Assembly (NCBI RefSeq): GCF_033063295.1
Contig: NZ_JAWJZH010000001.1
Location: 1,550,001-1,614,000 of the forward strand
Direction: 5' to 3'
Origin: Nitrosomonas sp. Is35
GTDB lineage: Bacteria > Pseudomonadota > Gammaproteobacteria > Burkholderiales > Nitrosomonadaceae
Length of the DNA stretch: 64,000 nucleotides
In this document: positions 9,776 to 38,153 of the stretch, in pieces
How the letters are laid out: every line of letters starts with the position of its first letter
How positions within the stretch are numbered: position 1 is the first letter of the stretch
Notes under the pieces: model-generated
What the model saw: only the letters and a program-made list of their open reading frames with translations
Told to the model about the DNA's origin: nothing
Databases searched by the model: none
Made by a program: the position numbers and the translations under genes

Positions 9776-10058
9776 GATTTATGCTCCTTTGAACGGTTTC
9801 GATAAAACCGCCACCCGTGCGAGACACGGGCGGGCGGATAGATCGGGTTGACAGACCGGGGATAAGACCGGCGAGCCTTTCGGCTCCCCAAAATACCCAC
9901 CCATAAAAACAAAGGGCAAATAAATAACGGACATAAAAAATGCCGCATAGCGGCAATATCCGCTTATCCAACAGGCTGTCAAACCCGTCCATTGATTTTG
10001 CAATGGCACAGTGAGCATAAACCCAGCAAGCGGGCAAAGTCAACAGGAAGTCATTCAT
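9726..10058 (-). CDS. Ash/Icd-like small phage protein
   Basis: 110 residues from ATG 10058, which overlaps the stop of the preceding gene (ATGA) and follows GGGAGG. It contains WGAERLAGLIPG followed by RPPVSRTGGG, a pattern I associate with the Ash/Icd-like proteins encoded in phage immunity regions (P4 ash, P1 icd). A second frame (ATG 10018 to 9779) is also open and reads GEPKGSP, so the DNA, rather than one protein, may be what is conserved. The same DNA motif recurs in the Mu-like element at 34115-34223. It overlaps the 203-residue gene by 50 bases, so coding status is uncertain. Confidence 0.4.
   Translation of the reverse strand: MNDFLLTLPACWVYAHCAIAKSMDGFDSLLDKRILPLCGIFYVRYLFALCFYGWVFWGAERLAGLIPGLSTRSIRPPVSRTGGGFIETVQRSINHDNKQSNPRIRISNGQ
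9846..9954 (-). promoter_or_regulatory. conserved leader: T-tailed hairpin plus GAAA-loop hairpin
   Basis: Read on the minus strand: GCCGCTATGCGGC (9954-9942) followed by an AT6A tract, like an intrinsic terminator or attenuator. Further on comes the hairpin GAGCC-GAAA-GGCTC (9886-9873), then a conserved tract ending in TGTCAACC (9846). The same order and spacing appear at 34223-34115 in the Mu-like element. The likely role is an antisense or attenuator RNA of the C4/CI type. Confidence 0.55.
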
Positions 10059-30590: not shown

Positions 30591-31496
30591 TTATTTATTA
30601 CGTACTTGATTAGTTGCGTATCTTTTACTGAGGTTTATAAGCTGGCGATTTTGAATTGCTAGGCGTTTACGAACGTCATCCCAGTCAAGAAATAATGGAA
30701 CTTCATCAATTTTGCGATTATCATCGAATGCGAAAGCATGAAGGCCAATAAATTTTCCTTCGTTCTCAGCCTTGTAAAGGCTAATTGTATCTTCAAATGT
30801 GCGACGTGCTTTTACTACGTTGCAATCAATCATTTCCCTTGCTTGCTGATGAATGAAGCTTATCGATTCGATATATTTACGAGTTGCCGCACATAAATTA
30901 ACCTCATCAGGCATTTGATTTAATACTGATTTCTTAAATGAATTATCAGAAAGTAATTTTTCTTTCTTGGCAGAAATATAGATCGAATACTCGTTTAACC
31001 CATTAGTTTTATCAATATCAGTCCATTGCGATCCTATTGAGACTCTATGAACTGGAGCACCTCTATGCTGAACGTGATTTCTCAAAGCTTCCATAAAACG
31101 ATATTCAAAATTATCGTCGTATTCCTTCTTAAATAGATTACTAACTTCATCTTTTATATTCGAAATTTCTGGAAGGCATGCTGCTAGATGGCTGGTTAGG
31201 GTATCAGTGTAGAGCCGTACTGACGTTAAAAGATTTACCAGCCTCACATTTAGTATCAGAATAAGATCAAAGAAATCATTATATCCACCAGTCGCGCGAA
31301 CCATTTCTGAAGCAGTTAAGGTAATAATTTCTTTTTCTAACTCCATGTAGTTAGAAACTAAAATTTCGTACTTTTCTTCAAAAAATAGTGCTTCACTTAG
31401 AATAGTTCTCGATGATTTCAGTAATTGAAACTTCTGCTCATCAATCTGAATCTCTGAGTACTTTCCTAAAACATTAAGTCTGAGTATGAATTTCAT
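30591..31496 (-). CDS. cargo protein with a HEPN-like RNxxxH motif
   Basis: 301 residues, almost all helical, no signal peptide. Around residues 137-147 it reads EALRNHVQHRG, matching the RNxxxH active-site pattern of HEPN ribonucleases; the surrounding YRFMEAL...GAPVH context also looks conserved. HEPN proteins act as RNA-cleaving toxins in toxin-antitoxin and abortive-infection systems. The gene ends two bases inside the right-end sites of the Mu-like element, the usual place for cargo. It has its own leader with a T-tailed hairpin (31568-31617). Activity is inference; the N-terminal third is unassigned. Confidence 0.65.
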   Translation of the reverse strand: MKFILRLNVLGKYSEIQIDEQKFQLLKSSRTILSEALFFEEKYEILVSNYMELEKEIITLTASEMVRATGGYNDFFDLILILNVRLVNLLTSVRLYTDTLTSHLAACLPEISNIKDEVSNLFKKEYDDNFEYRFMEALRNHVQHRGAPVHRVSIGSQWTDIDKTNGLNEYSIYISAKKEKLLSDNSFKKSVLNQMPDEVNLCAATRKYIESISFIHQQAREMIDCNVVKARRTFEDTISLYKAENEGKFIGLHAFAFDDNRKIDEVPLFLDWDDVRKRLAIQNRQLINLSKRYATNQVRNK

Positions 31497-32458: not shown

Positions 32459-32803
32459 TTATGAATCAGAAATAATTCGTCTTACCTGCCGGTCGGTCAG
32501 GTCGTATTTCATGGCGATATCCCGATGGCTCATGCCTTTTTTGGCGTCTTCGATAATCGCCTGGTGCCGTTTTTTGATTTCAAGGCTTGAGAGCATGGGT
32601 AAGGTCAACGCCACGCCATCGAAATGAAATATCATTTTCTCGGTATTTTCTGCACCTACGATGATATTCAGCCGCTTACGTGACCGGTCGCTGTTTGAGA
32701 CATGCAGGCGCGTACCGCCAAAAACCGTACATAGCCGGGTAAAAGCATCATCACCGATCAGGTTTAACAGCTCTTGATTTTCGTTGTTGTCGTTTGCTGG
32801 CAT
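32459..32803 (-). CDS. Mor-like transcription activator
   Basis: 114 residues from ATG 32803; a longer frame reaches 32914 but its extra part is not family-like. The N-terminal part (LLNLIGDDAFTRLCTVFGGTRLHV) matches the dimerisation region of the Mor/C activators of Mu. The C-terminal helix-turn-helix is MSHRDIAMKYDLTDRQVRRI. In Mu, Mor turns on middle transcription and then C and the late genes. Here no late structural genes follow, so it may only drive the 203-residue and HEPN-like genes. Confidence 0.75.
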   Translation of the reverse strand: MPANDNNENQELLNLIGDDAFTRLCTVFGGTRLHVSNSDRSRKRLNIIVGAENTEKMIFHFDGVALTLPMLSSLEIKKRHQAIIEDAKKGMSHRDIAMKYDLTDRQVRRIISDS

Positions 32804-32928
32804 ATCGCTTGCATTTGTAAATGAGGAACACTGTCCACAGTACGATAGCAAGCCGAATGGATTGAAATAAGGCGGAATGATTTCCGCCCTAGGGTTTGGA
32901 AATCTTAGAATCAAGTTTGATTGAAAAA

Positions 32929-33009
32929 CGGGCGGGAGGCCGGATGTCCCTCCATCAACGAATCATAGAAACGTTTCTGTGGACTCCGAAAATTTCCACA
33001 GCTCACCCG
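32929..33009 (-). ncRNA. structured RNA unit A of the Mu-like element
   Basis: Closing stem CGGGTG/CGCCCG (33009-33004 with 32934-32929, minus strand). Inside are CTGTGGA/TCCACAG (33001-32995 with 32983-32977), a small AAACGTTT hairpin, and GGAGG/CCTCC (32953-32949 with 32939-32935). It repeats unit B (33116-33198) in the same orientation, with sequence changes that keep the pairing. Confidence 0.6.
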
Positions 33010-33020
33010 CATAAAACAAA

Positions 33021-33105
33021 GAGCAAAACCGGCGCCGGATTCGAACCGGATCATAGCAGTCTTTCGACCCCCAACCATTCCCATTGGAAACAACCGGCTT
33101 TGCTC
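33021..33105 (-). ncRNA. structured RNA unit M with tRNA-like T-arm
   Basis: GAGCAAAGCCGG (33105-33094) pairs with CCGGTTTTGCTC (33032-33021), twelve positions with one G-U. Enclosed are TTCC-AATG-GGAA, GTC-GAAA-GAC and CCGG-TTCGAAT-CCGG. The last has the exact T-loop consensus of tRNAs. No anticodon arm or normal 7-bp acceptor is present, so it is tRNA-like at most. Confidence 0.55.
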
Positions 33106-33115
33106 AAAACTGCAA

Positions 33116-33198
33116 CGGGCGGGAGGCCGGACGTCCCTCCATCCAGGATCACGCAAGTGACCAAGCCTGTAGACTCCGAAATTTCCACAGCTCGCCCG
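33116..33198 (-). ncRNA. structured RNA unit B of the Mu-like element
   Basis: Closing stem CGGGCG/CGCCCG (33198-33193 with 33121-33116). Inner helices: CTGTGGA with TCTACAG, GGTCAC-TTGC-GTGATCC (33162-33146), GGAGG with CCTCC (33140-33136 with 33126-33122). Compared with unit A, the outer and third stems keep sequence, the middle hairpin changes sequence but remains a hairpin. Confidence 0.6.
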
Positions 33199-33333
33199 TC
33201 TAAATCTGCAAAGATACTTTGCGGATGGTGAGCCCCCCCAACCCGGTTTCCCGGAAACCCCACATATCACTCCGGCATTACTGCCGTGTTACGGCCGGGA
33301 GAATATTACCGTGTCACACCCGCGTTTTTTATT
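33199..33333 (-). other. noncoding block upstream of RNA unit B
   Basis: More dense symmetry without a gene: GCAAAG/CTTTGC (about 33207-33221), GTTTCC-G-GGAAAC (about 33246-33258) and GCCGT/ACGGC (about 33280-33292). It follows the 112-residue gene and probably belongs to the same structured transcript. The 119-residue frame over 32911-33270 runs through the RNA units and is best ignored. Confidence 0.45.
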
Positions 33334-33672
33334 CTATACCCTACTTTGGTTTGCTTCCACACTCCTTGATAAATCAGGTGATTGATTAAGTTCTTGCTGC
33401 TTTTGTGATTCACTGGCCATATCCATAGCTTCAAAGCTGTTGTTCATCAAGTGTTTTCCGAGTATCTCCAATAAAGAGCCAATTCCTTGAATAGTGTATT
33501 CTTCCAATCGATCACGATCCACCACCCTCATTAACTCGCCTAAAGAAGCTAGTGCAGAACTCGCATCTTCAAATTCATTGGCCATTTTCCGGTAGCTTTC
33601 AGGATTTCCGGGGATTTTCTCAGGATATCGAACGATAACAACTTCATCATTATTAATTTCCTGATTACGCAT
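33334..33672 (-). CDS. hypothetical Mu-like element early protein
   Basis: 112 residues, ATG 33672 overlapping the previous gene by eight bases, so translationally coupled. It is acidic and helical (NEFEDASSALASLGELMRVVD, then IGSLLEILGKHLM), with a polar Gln/Ser-rich tail. No transmembrane segment and no recognised family. It lies downstream of the GemA-like and 91-residue genes and just upstream of the RNA block. Confidence 0.6.
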   Translation of the reverse strand: MRNQEINNDEVVIVRYPEKIPGNPESYRKMANEFEDASSALASLGELMRVVDRDRLEEYTIQGIGSLLEILGKHLMNNSFEAMDMASESQKQQELNQSPDLSRSVEANQSRV

Positions 33673-34046: not shown

Positions 34047-34114
34047 GGTATTACTCCTTGTCTAGCGATCAAAAACCGCTACCCCGATGTCAAACGAGGA
34101 GGCGGAACTGTGCA

Positions 34115-34223
34115 GGTTGACATACCGGGACAAGGTTCCGGCGAGCCTTTCGGCTCCCCGCACAGTCCGCCAAAAACTAGGCGTGCTTGTATCAACGGAC
34201 AAAAAAATAGCCGCTTAAGCGGC
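34115..34223 (-). promoter_or_regulatory. conserved leader (copy of 9846-9954) in the Mu-like element
   Basis: Minus strand: GCCGCTTAAGCGGC (34223-34210) followed by TAT7G, then GAGCC-GAAA-GGCTC (34156-34143), then a tract ending TGTCAACC (34115). The order, loop and spacing equal those of the island leader. Two frames are open here too: GEPKGSP and GAERLAG, but both are shorter than in the island. Confidence 0.55.
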
Positions 34224-34414: not shown

Positions 34415-34912
34415 TTAACGCGCGTTTAACGGTGTTTTTGCGGCATGTTTATTCATGCCGGAATTGTCATTTTTCTGTTTTTTGTATTCCAACCATTTTT
34501 CCAAACCGATAATGACCTTAGAAATCGATTGCCGGGTTAGAAAGCGCGGGCTTTCCAGTTTGGTAACGCGCTTAACAAAAGCCGCGAATTGCGGCGTCAT
34601 GGCATTGCCAAACCCTAACCGCCGGGCAAGAATCTCCATCTCGCCCCATTGTATTTGCGTTGGCCGGTTCGATGCGCTTCCGGTGGCTTTTCGCTCTAAG
34701 CAGCCTCGCTGCCTTAACGAAGCAATCAATTCCCGCAATTGCTCATCCGTTAAATCCTTGCAGCTCGTCTTGCCGGTCAAATTTTGTAACCATGCGCGGT
34801 ACTCAATGCTGCCATGTTCAATATTAAGCTGCTGTGCGGCAATATGAACCATTGCCATCAGCTTATGGCGCGGCGTTGGTTTCCAGGTTTGTTTCAAATC
34901 ATTTGTCCGCAT
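34415..34912 (-). CDS. GemA-like (DUF1018) early regulatory protein
   Basis: 165 residues. It matches the Mu Gp16/GemA family: KLMAMVHIAAQQLNIE, then YRAWLQNLTGKTSCKDLTDE, then a C-terminal region LESPRFLTRQSISKVIIGLEKWL. In Mu, GemA modulates host gene expression and DNA supercoiling. ATG 34912 lies one base from the MuB-like stop, so they are one operon (A-B-gemA order as in Mu). Confidence 0.8.
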   Translation of the reverse strand: MRTNDLKQTWKPTPRHKLMAMVHIAAQQLNIEHGSIEYRAWLQNLTGKTSCKDLTDEQLRELIASLRQRGCLERKATGSASNRPTQIQWGEMEILARRLGFGNAMTPQFAAFVKRVTKLESPRFLTRQSISKVIIGLEKWLEYKKQKNDNSGMNKHAAKTPLNAR

Positions 34913-34913
34913 G

Positions 34914-36026
34914 TTATGCCTTTTTATAAAACATCAGACTGTCATGATTAATTTTCCCGAAGTCATACAGGGAATTTCTGAATGCTTTAACCAGTGTACG
35001 CAACCCGCCTTCACCCATCCCCATTTTTACACACCAATCCAGTTCCTTTTTACCGGATACCCCCCAGCTTTGCATGATCAGCAAAATATCGTTCTCGGTT
35101 AATTTAATGGGCCTTTCGCAGGTAATTCTGCTGGTAATTTGAATACTTTTTAGTTCCCTTGCTCGCTGGAACATTTCTCCATTACTCAAAAGAGCAATTC
35201 CAAATAGCTTGCGATCAATGAACGTTCTCAGGGTATTTGCTATCGTTCCACCGGAAGACCTTGTAATTCCAATGAACCGGCCAAGATGATTGGCTTCATC
35301 AAAAATGAATACTCCGCCTCGATGATAAGTAGCCATGCGCTCTATTGATTTTTCCAGCATATCAACTTCCATTCTTTCATCCGGTTCAATGACATGATCA
35401 CTGGATTTTCCGCTTGCGTATATTGCGCGTGCCATCTCAAGAAGCAGAATCTTTAATGTTAAATTCGTTTCACGCAAGGTAATTATCCACACTGGCGCGT
35501 CAAATCCTTCAGATTTGCGGCATTGCAACTGATATTGCACACTTGCGCTGCTTTTTCCATGTCCTGGGGGGGATGGAATCTCAATTAAATCTTGCATAAC
35601 ACGGGCTTTGTGGATTTTCTCAATAATATTGGTAGCAACACTTGTTGCGACAAAGCACGGCTCACCGAATTTATTATTTTGTTCATTATCTTGAGTATCA
35701 AGCCATTCTTCAATCTGAGCTTCAATTTTTTCTGCTAATGGCTGCTGATTAAAATATCGTCCCGGTTCGCGGAATTTATGACCATCCTTCATCCATCCTT
35801 CTATGCAGGCTGCCCAGGTTTCTACGGTGTTATTATTTCGCCTCATCCCATCATCTTGGGGCATAGTTTCAATTGCAAGCTGAAGCAAAGAAACCCCTCT
35901 TAAAGCCATTCTATCCAAAGCTCGATTTTTAAGAGTTTCCCATCGGGTTATATCAACATTTGGCTTATCAGATTCAAGTATCTGGTTTTCTATGTCGCTC
36001 GATAAATCAATTGTTTGTGATGTCAT
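34914..36026 (-). CDS. MuB-like AAA+ transposition target-choice ATPase
   Basis: 370 residues. Walker A is IPSPPGHGKSS (about residue 150), Walker B GGVFIFDEANHLG, and the arginine region RDxxIQITSRITC follows. The C-terminal about 60 residues are a small helical domain like that of MuB. Such proteins form filaments on target DNA, deliver it to the transposase and protect the element from self-insertion. Directly downstream of the transposase (15-bp gap). Confidence 0.85.
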   Translation of the reverse strand: MTSQTIDLSSDIENQILESDKPNVDITRWETLKNRALDRMALRGVSLLQLAIETMPQDDGMRRNNNTVETWAACIEGWMKDGHKFREPGRYFNQQPLAEKIEAQIEEWLDTQDNEQNNKFGEPCFVATSVATNIIEKIHKARVMQDLIEIPSPPGHGKSSASVQYQLQCRKSEGFDAPVWIITLRETNLTLKILLLEMARAIYASGKSSDHVIEPDERMEVDMLEKSIERMATYHRGGVFIFDEANHLGRFIGITRSSGGTIANTLRTFIDRKLFGIALLSNGEMFQRARELKSIQITSRITCERPIKLTENDILLIMQSWGVSGKKELDWCVKMGMGEGGLRTLVKAFRNSLYDFGKINHDSLMFYKKA

Positions 36027-36041
36027 GTTTCCTCCTTTTCC

Positions 36042-38153
36042 CTAGTTTTGTTTCATCCATTCAGGTAAATTTTTCTTTTGCTGCTCTGATCGAAGCTGAT
36101 TGATCTCATCTTCGCCGGTCTCTGAAGGTGCATCAAAATATTTAAACTTAGGCTCCGATCTGACTGTAATTTCACCGGTTTGAGTATTCTTAATGCTCCC
36201 GTCTTCTTGGGTTGTGATGTGGTTGATCGGCTCGGGCTGCTTTTCCGGTGGCAGTTTTAATACATTCAATAAATTTGATTGCAACAAATCCGGCAATCCT
36301 TCTTCAGTGGTATCTTGGATTACTTCTGCATTTTTGATGCGCTCTTTTGCCGCCTTTGTTGCCATTCCTGATTTTTTGATCTTCGATGATCGATTTTCCC
36401 AAGTTTCCCCGCCAGCTGTTCTATCCAGGAATGACGTATGCGCTTTATTAATAGCTTCCCCCATGTAGATGGCCCCGTCATAAATCAAAGCCGGTTCTTT
36501 GGGATCTGATGGGTCTGGAAGAATATCGTAGGAGTAGCCACGTTTAACGGTCTCACTATCTTGCGGCGTATATTCAACTTGTCCAAAGCCGGGAATTGTC
36601 ATTTGAAAAACAAGCTGCTTGCTGAGTACACGACGAAATACCAGCGGACGCATTGCGCGTATGTGTTCAATGGATACTGATTTCTTTGTGTGGGTCTCCA
36701 TCAAGTGGTTGTATAGCTCAAGTGGAGACATGCCATTCATGCCCTGCCCGCGATGTTTGCCAAACTCACCTTTTGCCCATGCGACTACGCAACTCGATAA
36801 GCGTTTTACGTATTCTTTAATGGGCATTGCGTGTTTTTTGTCGCAATTTTCCGGTCGATTCACAGCATTGGAACCTGTATATGCAGCTCCACATAACTTA
36901 TCTACATTTTTTGCAATTACATTCCACCATGATTCAATGCTTTTTGCTGCGCCGTGGTAGGGTGTTGCCCATATTGTATTGACACCCATCCGGGTGAGTA
37001 TTCCTATTGGCTGGTTCTTTAATACGGTATGGCGGAAAGGGCTTTTCTGTCCACCATTCAATGCATTATTTGAATATTCGGTGCCATTATCTAAGTAGAA
37101 ATTTTCCGGCATTGTTTCAGTTAGCAATACCGCATTTCTTAATGCATCAATAACCAATTCCGCATTGGTATCAACGTACACTTTAATTCCAAGCGGCATA
37201 CGTGTTCTGACTTCGCGAATAACGACAACCCAAGGACGTGAAACCGTTCCATCCGGCCATAGACAAAATACATCCGCTTTCCGCCCGTCAGATTCCCACA
37301 ATTCATGAATTCCCAACGTTGTGTAGTCGCGTTTGAGGTGTGGCAAGCTTTCTTTTAACGCCGTTTTTCCTTTACGAAGCAGTATCTTCTCGTTATCCGG
37401 TACATCGCTATCCCATCTTCTTAAAAATGTTTTAAGGCTTGGCAATTCACCCCATCCATTCTTTTTGGCTTCTTTGCTTGTTTCGCGATAAATAACCGTT
37501 GCATCCGGCTGAGTTTGTTGTCCGTAATTGACATAGAAAAAATCCCAGGCTCTTGGGTGAATTTCAGTGCGCGCGCGCCCTTGGTAATCGGGAGCTAGAA
37601 TTACTTCCCAATATTGACGCGGATGATTGGCCACTTGCTGCAACCAACGCCATAAAGTGGCTTTGGAAATGCCCGTGTAATTCGATTGGATGATTTTTAA
37701 TGCCTTCCCTTTCTTAAAACCACCCTTAAGCAATTTCAAATATTCATCCAGGATATTTACTCGACGTATTGCTTCTTCTTTGATTCCTGCTGATTTTCTA
37801 CTGTATGAGTCGGCTATTGCTTCATATGCTTCATGTTCGATTTGAACATTTTCCTGATTTTTATAAATGGAGGGTAAATCAGGGCGCTGCGGTTCGTGAT
37901 GCTCTAACCAGTATTTGTCTTGTATTGGTTTGAGCAGGCTGGATAAAAGGATTTCATAGCGCTTACCTTCTTTACGGTAGGTATAACGCCCTCCTCTATA
38001 ACTTCCATCTCGTTCTAAACAAGCTTCACGAATTGTTGCTGGATTCAATCCAGTTAGATTAGAAACTTCAGTAACAGTTAACCAAACATTATTCCCCGCA
38101 AAACCCGCGATAGTTTTTATGTGCAATATTTCGGGTAATTCTGACTTACTCAT
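36042..38153 (-). CDS. MuA-like DDE transposase
   Basis: 703 residues, similar in length to MuA (663). Residues 20-70 form the winged-helix enhancer-binding domain (WLTVTEVSNLTGLNPATIRE), followed by the end-binding region (GGFKKGKALKII, then SKATLWRWLQQV). The catalytic triad is visible: Asp in LWESDGRKAD, Asp in FYLDNGTEYS, Glu in AAKSIESWWNVI. The beta-barrel/C-terminal domain for MuB contact follows. It cuts and joins the element ends. GGAGG-poor start; ATG 38153 fits the family N-terminus. Confidence 0.92.
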   Translation of the reverse strand: MSKSELPEILHIKTIAGFAGNNVWLTVTEVSNLTGLNPATIREACLERDGSYRGGRYTYRKEGKRYEILLSSLLKPIQDKYWLEHHEPQRPDLPSIYKNQENVQIEHEAYEAIADSYSRKSAGIKEEAIRRVNILDEYLKLLKGGFKKGKALKIIQSNYTGISKATLWRWLQQVANHPRQYWEVILAPDYQGRARTEIHPRAWDFFYVNYGQQTQPDATVIYRETSKEAKKNGWGELPSLKTFLRRWDSDVPDNEKILLRKGKTALKESLPHLKRDYTTLGIHELWESDGRKADVFCLWPDGTVSRPWVVVIREVRTRMPLGIKVYVDTNAELVIDALRNAVLLTETMPENFYLDNGTEYSNNALNGGQKSPFRHTVLKNQPIGILTRMGVNTIWATPYHGAAKSIESWWNVIAKNVDKLCGAAYTGSNAVNRPENCDKKHAMPIKEYVKRLSSCVVAWAKGEFGKHRGQGMNGMSPLELYNHLMETHTKKSVSIEHIRAMRPLVFRRVLSKQLVFQMTIPGFGQVEYTPQDSETVKRGYSYDILPDPSDPKEPALIYDGAIYMGEAINKAHTSFLDRTAGGETWENRSSKIKKSGMATKAAKERIKNAEVIQDTTEEGLPDLLQSNLLNVLKLPPEKQPEPINHITTQEDGSIKNTQTGEITVRSEPKFKYFDAPSETGEDEINQLRSEQQKKNLPEWMKQN

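Follow-up and report, generated by a model that had tools for sequence, protein, structure and literature searches.

Introduction

In type III toxin-antitoxin systems (ToxIN and its kin), an RNase toxin is countered by an RNA antitoxin, encoded as short tandem repeats upstream of the toxin gene in the same operon; the ToxI RNA of ToxIN has a pseudoknot. Here, we describe a minus-strand row of four folded RNA units (N, A, M, and B), from three unrelated families, inside a Mu-like element of Nitrosomonas sp. Is35. The row lies in a stretch of 64,000 nucleotides (nt) of contig NZ_JAWJZH010000001.1, which was analysed as a whole and is hereafter called the window. In phages, the same families adjoin genes of Mu gpF-like (MuF) head proteins and follow the type of their C-terminal domain. 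We consider it probable that the units are structured RNA antitoxins against virion-borne MuF RNases, stacked in the window as an orphan immunity array.

Two descriptions are closest on the protein side, each cited here for the portion of its text available to us. In the MuF polymorphic toxins of temperate phages, an N-terminal MuF head domain is joined to a swappable C-terminal domain, and a small open reading frame (ORF) that follows the toxin gene has been proposed to confer immunity (Jamet et al. 2017, PMC5576092). The C-terminal domain of Mu gpF relatives (PBECR or MuF-C, Pfam PF18819) is predicted to be an RNase of the BECR fold (Iyer et al. 2017, PMC5512222). Among the literature matches listed (open-licence PMC papers, by title and start of abstract), no paper ties an RNA to MuF immunity.

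The loci found here resemble the MuF polymorphic toxins in that a head domain (PF04233, in 10/10 MuF proteins scanned) is fused to a variable C-terminal domain that is swapped between proteins, and differ from them in that the gap behind the toxin gene is taken up by a structured RNA encoded in the opposite direction, and the next gene is a virion gene. As in PBECR/MuF-C, the domains are C-termini of Mu gpF relatives, although PF18819 matched 2/10 of the proteins scanned, one barely above the cut-off, and most domains are unrecognised by the Pfam model; the RNA partner has no counterpart in the portion of PMC5512222 available to us. Like type III systems they would pair an RNA antitoxin with an RNase, and family N has a pseudoknot, as does ToxI. 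Unlike in those systems, the RNA is mostly a single unit of ~90–115 nt, convergent with and downstream of the toxin gene, with no short repeats upstream; its partner is a phage head protein, and three unrelated RNA families would share one role and occur in mixed orphan arrays.

Four RNA units from three conserved families

The first-pass annotation of the window had reported three folded units. Units A, M, and B were confirmed, but the actual count is four, unit N having been overlooked. They are listed below with the scores of models R1–R3, among whose building sequences are the window units themselves:

33214..33329, minus strand: RNA unit N, N family, with pseudoknot CUCCC/GGGAG (model R3, 110.8 bits, E 2e-26)
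33107..33208, minus strand: RNA unit A, A/B family (model R1, 101.6 bits)
33017..33106, minus strand: RNA unit M, M family, with T-arm-like hairpin GGTTCGAATCC (model R2, 94.8 bits)
32920..33019, minus strand: RNA unit B, A/B family (model R1, 92.8 bits)

In each of units A, M, and B, a long closing stem encloses three hairpins. The spacing of the direct repeats A and B is 187–190 nt, in agreement with the ~80-nt repeats 187 nt apart annotated earlier. When single sequences were folded against shuffles, the signal was strong for M (z −3.6) and modest for A and B (−1.9 and −1.7), and unit N folded no better than its shuffles (−0.6).

The A-M-B stretch was matched in 16/125 genomes of the window's family (its own genome counted), several of them with a single unit only, and unit N in 8/125. 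IMG/VR was scanned with sequence patterns, which yielded 25 contigs with A/B, 29 with M, and 54 with N; four of the 25 (L020, L021, L036, and L040) lacked unit A and were dropped as chance matches, and two of the 54 (L076 and L121) were without the N stems by eye. Two-sided changes were present in 11/20 pairs of the A/B family (31 sequences), 12/24 of the M family (32 sequences), and 18/31 of the N family (46 sequences), one of the latter in the pseudoknot. This pseudoknot joins columns 29–33 with 106–110, and the one free pair in it changes from U-A to C-G in 14/46 sequences. Standard pairs filled 96.0% (A/B), 97.5% (M), and 98.4% (N) of the pair cells, and in all three families 0/500 shuffles came up to any of the five measures. 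Sliding the partner by 1–3 columns reduced pairing to 36–53%, in a control biased in favour of the structures because these were partly derived from the same alignments.

The closing stem and the middle hairpin vary in sequence and keep their pairing, while the first and third hairpins are nearly invariant. This invariance is partly by construction, as the contigs were found with patterns taken from the first and third hairpins; the search patterns did not include the closing stems and middle hairpins, where the covariation is found. The selection for structure inferred earlier is supported. As judged from the aligned sequences, A/B, M, and N are conserved structured RNA families.

No unit had a match in Rfam 15 (E<=5; 1,401 nt searched), consistent with the annotation that no described RNA fits. 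The C4 antisense RNA (RF01695) is likewise a phage RNA and is present in the same element, but its covariance model did not match the units; in that search it matched only at 34095-34177 (minus strand), 0.8 kb upstream of the array. C4 RNA also occurs in three sister array stretches (L343, L346, and L350), and a second copy with an adjoining c4-a1b1 target element lies at 9826-9908 and 9968-10020 of the window (minus strand). A tRNA reading of unit M was rejected, neither ARAGORN nor Rfam giving a cloverleaf. Hammerhead and twister ribozymes are enriched near genes of Mu-like phages, according to the portion of PMC10085705 available to us, which would favour new self-cleaving ribozymes; the units had no covariance match to the Rfam self-cleaving ribozymes, and a ribozyme would not be expected to track a toxin-domain type as they do (see below), so that this explanation is highly improbable.

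A protein-coding reading of the region was also rejected. A 119-residue frame spans 32911-33270 and is open for 92 codons from the first hairpin of unit A in the window; its Pfam scan was empty, and in related arrays it meets an earlier stop in 9/9 cases (1–5 stops over 285 nt), in line with the noncoding character first assigned to the gap.

The RNAs adjoin MuF head-protein genes in phages

In Mu-like contigs of IMG/VR, the units are mostly single and occupy one site: they run opposite to the structural genes and converge on the 3' end of the MuF gene, the RNA end falling −5 to +58 nt from the end of the toxin domain. The PHROG annotation "minor head protein and DNA pilot" was obtained for 4/4 proteins. 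The next gene on the toxin strand was PF05069 virion morphogenesis (Phage_tail_S) in 10/10 proteins tested, all above the cut-off, so no small immunity-protein gene lies directly downstream in these ten, very small ORFs not having been searched for. Since the next gene on the toxin strand is one for virion morphogenesis, the RNA occupies the gap where an immunity gene would be sought.

Models of the C-terminal domains showed weak resemblance to RNase toxins. In sequence searches of PDB, the only matches of the N-type profile were to designed repeat proteins and to unrelated chains, and the M-type profile had none. Searches of named phages with DNA queries gave one match for unit A (E 0.8, taken as chance) and none for unit M; with protein queries, the N-type domain had none and the M-type domain one distant match, in a Pasteurella phage. 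In IMG/VR, a search with the Mor protein returned nothing. In one contig (L047:1099-1205), a degenerate A-type unit (35 bits) stands just ahead of the M unit, forming a two-unit row beside the toxin gene.

The convergent arrangement, with its small distance to the toxin-domain end, is also what a type I-like antisense control of the toxin mRNA would give, and antisense immunity RNAs had been among the roles first suggested. We found no clear cognate-specific complementarity to the toxin gene: with the last 60 nt excluded, the mean longest perfect complement was 8.86 for cognate vs 8.48 for non-cognate genes, 8.59 vs 8.54, and 8.78 vs 8.65. Furthermore, the hairpin sequences are constant across unrelated phages while the closing stem is variable, and units exist as orphans. 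Antisense control is thus a scarcely credible explanation.

The RNA family follows the type of C-terminal domain

Three domain profiles were built from 9 (A), 11 (M), and 17 (N) C-terminal domain sequences, and the IMG/VR protein search found relatives encoded by 15/27 (A), 39/101 (M), and 137/163 (N) pattern stretches. Starting from the protein and scoring the loci with sequence profiles of the RNAs, the matching RNA was found at 14/15 A-type, 35/39 M-type, and 73/80 N-type domains (the best 80 of the 137 relatives), and the RNA of another family at 0 loci; two of the N-type misses have too little downstream sequence. After removal of exact duplicates, the matching RNA was present at 13/14, 30/33, and 64/69 domains. 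Because the profiles came from RNA-bearing loci, the contigs outside the RNA scans are the fairer subset: here the counts were 2/3 (A), 13/17 (M), and 46/53 (N), with 61 matches and 0 mismatches.

Starting from the RNA, 63/68 MuF ORFs beside the RNAs fit a profile (E<=1e-5), and 62/63 agree with the RNA, most of the agreeing proteins being sequences from which the profiles were built. Among proteins outside profile building, 25 agree, 1 disagrees, and 5 fit none; of these five ORFs, four (L059, L075, L088, and L099) look like wrong frames and one (L067) looks divergent. Because of such wrong frames, the protein-first figures serve as the count.

The 11 protein-first misses with sequence were examined, the variants among them being assessed by visual inspection and folding rather than by covariation. 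L148 keeps the first hairpin of A and has a re-paired third hairpin. L162, L163, L168, and L191 have a long closing stem and the T-arm-like GGTTCGAATCC. Four divergent N-type toxin loci (L265, L266, L267, and L272) have a different folded RNA in common at the same site, possibly a fourth family, and L256 and L258 share a further, unassigned stretch. Four of the eleven, folded alone, gave z values of −2.2 to −4.7.

The N-terminal parts of the proteins do not follow this division. Between A-type and M-type proteins, the median N-terminal identity is 0.55, as high as within type (0.59 and 0.54), whereas C-terminal identity is 0.22, vs 0.43–0.45 within type. Single pairs are more marked: L150_A and L195_N have 80% N-terminal and 19% C-terminal identity, and L148_A and L161_M have 77% and 23%, the RNA of L148 being a variant assigned by eye. 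A tree built from 108 N-terminal parts needs at least 7 changes of domain-type label, and well-supported branches force 4–5 changes in each group. By these comparisons, the RNA family follows the type of the C-terminal domain and not the N-terminus of the head protein. As the same N-terminal part is met with a different C-terminus and a different RNA, domain and RNA appear to move together as a cassette.

The same pairing would be expected if the RNA were a non-inhibiting partner of the C-terminal domain, such as a packaging or virion RNA, a cofactor of its activity, or a guide, with the domain serving as an RNA-binding module. Coherently, Mu's own catalytically dead MuF-C has been proposed to act probably by RNA binding (PMC5512222, in the portion available to us). 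A cofactor would be of no use in elements that hold arrays of three families but gave no MuF gene in the searches, or in a genome without any of the domains (see below), and we regard this explanation as unlikely.

Orphan arrays in Nitrosomonas

The array of the window is accompanied by the following features:

33331..33338, minus strand: −10-like box TATAGAAT, a few nt ahead of unit N, read directly
32924..32928, minus strand: T5 run, a possible end of the array transcript, directly 3' of the closing stem of unit B, read directly
32459..32914, minus strand: Mor-family activator gene, just downstream of the array (Pfam Mor, E 3.3e-8; phrog_836, late transcriptional activator)
34415..38153, minus strand: GemA, MuB-like, and MuA-like genes, within the Mu-like element that holds the array (Pfam)

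The motif TATARAAT precedes the first unit in 12 loci (L001-L011 and L017). A consensus scan found no full sigma-70 promoter at the array, and the T5 run was not called by the terminator scan.

In the genus of the window, ten genomes hold 11 arrays of at least two units, in seven compositions: N-A-M-B three times, A-M-B and A-M-inverted N twice each, and N-A-M-inverted N, A-M-N, A-M-A, and N-B once each. With the queries used, no MuF gene was detected in any of the 11 array stretches or in another six stretches, which come from five of the genomes; on the several short contigs, this absence is only partial. In the window's own assembly, profile searches gave no A-, M-, or N-type domain. The Pfam MuF_C model had no match there either, but its controls were equally silent, so that the absence of toxin domains in this genome rests on the A/M/N domain searches. 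The assembly has one PF04233 gene elsewhere, with no unit nearby.

Across the 125 genomes, we found four intact and one interrupted copy of the A-type domain and one N-type domain, and the matching RNA lies next to every intact A-type copy as well as the N-type one. The search for the M-type domain gave 0/125 and so lacked a positive control among these genomes. Arrays retain M units even though their domain was found in none of the genomes searched, as immunity to foreign phages predicts. In a GTDB scan, N matched 44/70 pattern loci: 11 with an N-type domain, 6 Nitrosomonas arrays, and 27 without the domain in the stretch. These results support orphan immunity, short of proof, with the RNA often retained without the toxin.

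Two further occurrences were also observed. An orphan N unit in a Halothiobacillus metagenome-assembled genome (L303:4482-4589) lies 0.1 kb from a Mor-like gene (below the Pfam cut-off) and echoes the Nitrosomonas arrangement. The conjugative plasmid MEALZ_p of Methylotuvimicrobium alcaliphilum 20Z has an M-type match of 69 nt (82%; L368:4001-4069; NC_016108.1 85280-85348), flanked by a hypothetical gene and a UvrD-helicase gene.

A mor gene is present in 10/11 array stretches, as would be expected of regulatory leaders or attenuators for mor, one of the roles first suggested, or of processing elements of the Mu-like early transcript. Several features speak against this. N units are inverted in three sister arrays, units are absent or re-ordered in others, and one of the five genomes with further stretches (G091) has a single unit; moreover, the same RNA families adjoin MuF genes in phages, mostly as single units. 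We judge a role in mor control or transcript processing very unlikely.

Proposed role as RNA antitoxins

We propose that the units are small RNAs, each folding on its own and each directed against one type of RNase-like MuF C-terminal domain, which it would inhibit. This domain would be a toxic RNase, active in the infected or the producing cell, which the RNA may bind and block, perhaps by substrate mimicry, given the tRNA T-arm-like hairpin of the M-type RNAs. Beside a toxin gene, the RNA would protect the lysogen; in the element of the window, the stacked N, A, M, and B would be orphan antidotes, guarding the host from phages that deliver the matching toxins. Inhibition, as opposed to a specific partnership with the domain, is inferred.

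Two observations fit the antitoxin proposal less well. Of the 27 GTDB loci with N but no domain, 8 are weak matches (<30 bits), 2 break off at the RNA, and 17 are clear units, spread over several groups of bacteria and with no toxin domain in the stretch examined (broken toxin genes were not looked for); among the neighbours tested are a Mu-like protease gene, a Mor-like gene (below the Pfam cut-off), and a hipA gene. The sole RNA-first mismatch is an M RNA beside an A-like domain (L063:3209-3305; 82 vs 36 bits), which may reflect recombination, divergence of an M-type domain, or a limit to the rule of pairing.

The T-arm-like hairpin is kept in M-type RNAs and their variants (it was in the search pattern for the 32 aligned sequences, not for the variants). 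It would also suit decoy substrates, baits cut by the toxin instead of host RNA. M is not a tRNA by ARAGORN or Rfam, and A and N are without any tRNA feature by eye, so decoys seem quite unlikely.

The first-pass annotation had suggested an RNA antitoxin for a HEPN-like cargo protein. The kind of function is probably right, but the partner indicated by type pairing and domain swaps is the MuF C-terminal domain. With the 301-aa cargo (30591-31496 of the window, minus strand) no pairing was noticed, homologues of the cargo not having been searched; the protein has a sole match, to phrog_30874 (function unknown), and none in Pfam, NCBIfam, or PADLOC.

More generally, we are inclined to see here a class of RNA genes, carried by phages and by their hosts, that confer immunity to virion-borne toxins. 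These would be several unrelated folded families, one per toxin type, spread as a cassette with the domain and then collected, re-ordered, and inverted in orphan arrays, forming for bacteria a heritable, stackable immunity panel made of RNA only. Immunity factors against polymorphic toxins are usually looked for among small proteins; in Mu-like phages, at least three undescribed RNA families appear to fill that place. The question left open in the available portion of Jamet et al. (PMC5576092), whether proteobacterial MuF C-terminal extensions are toxins, becomes directly testable. If the antitoxin proposal is true, host immunity would take a new, stacked form in the orphan arrays, and the RNAs would add new folds that inhibit proteins.
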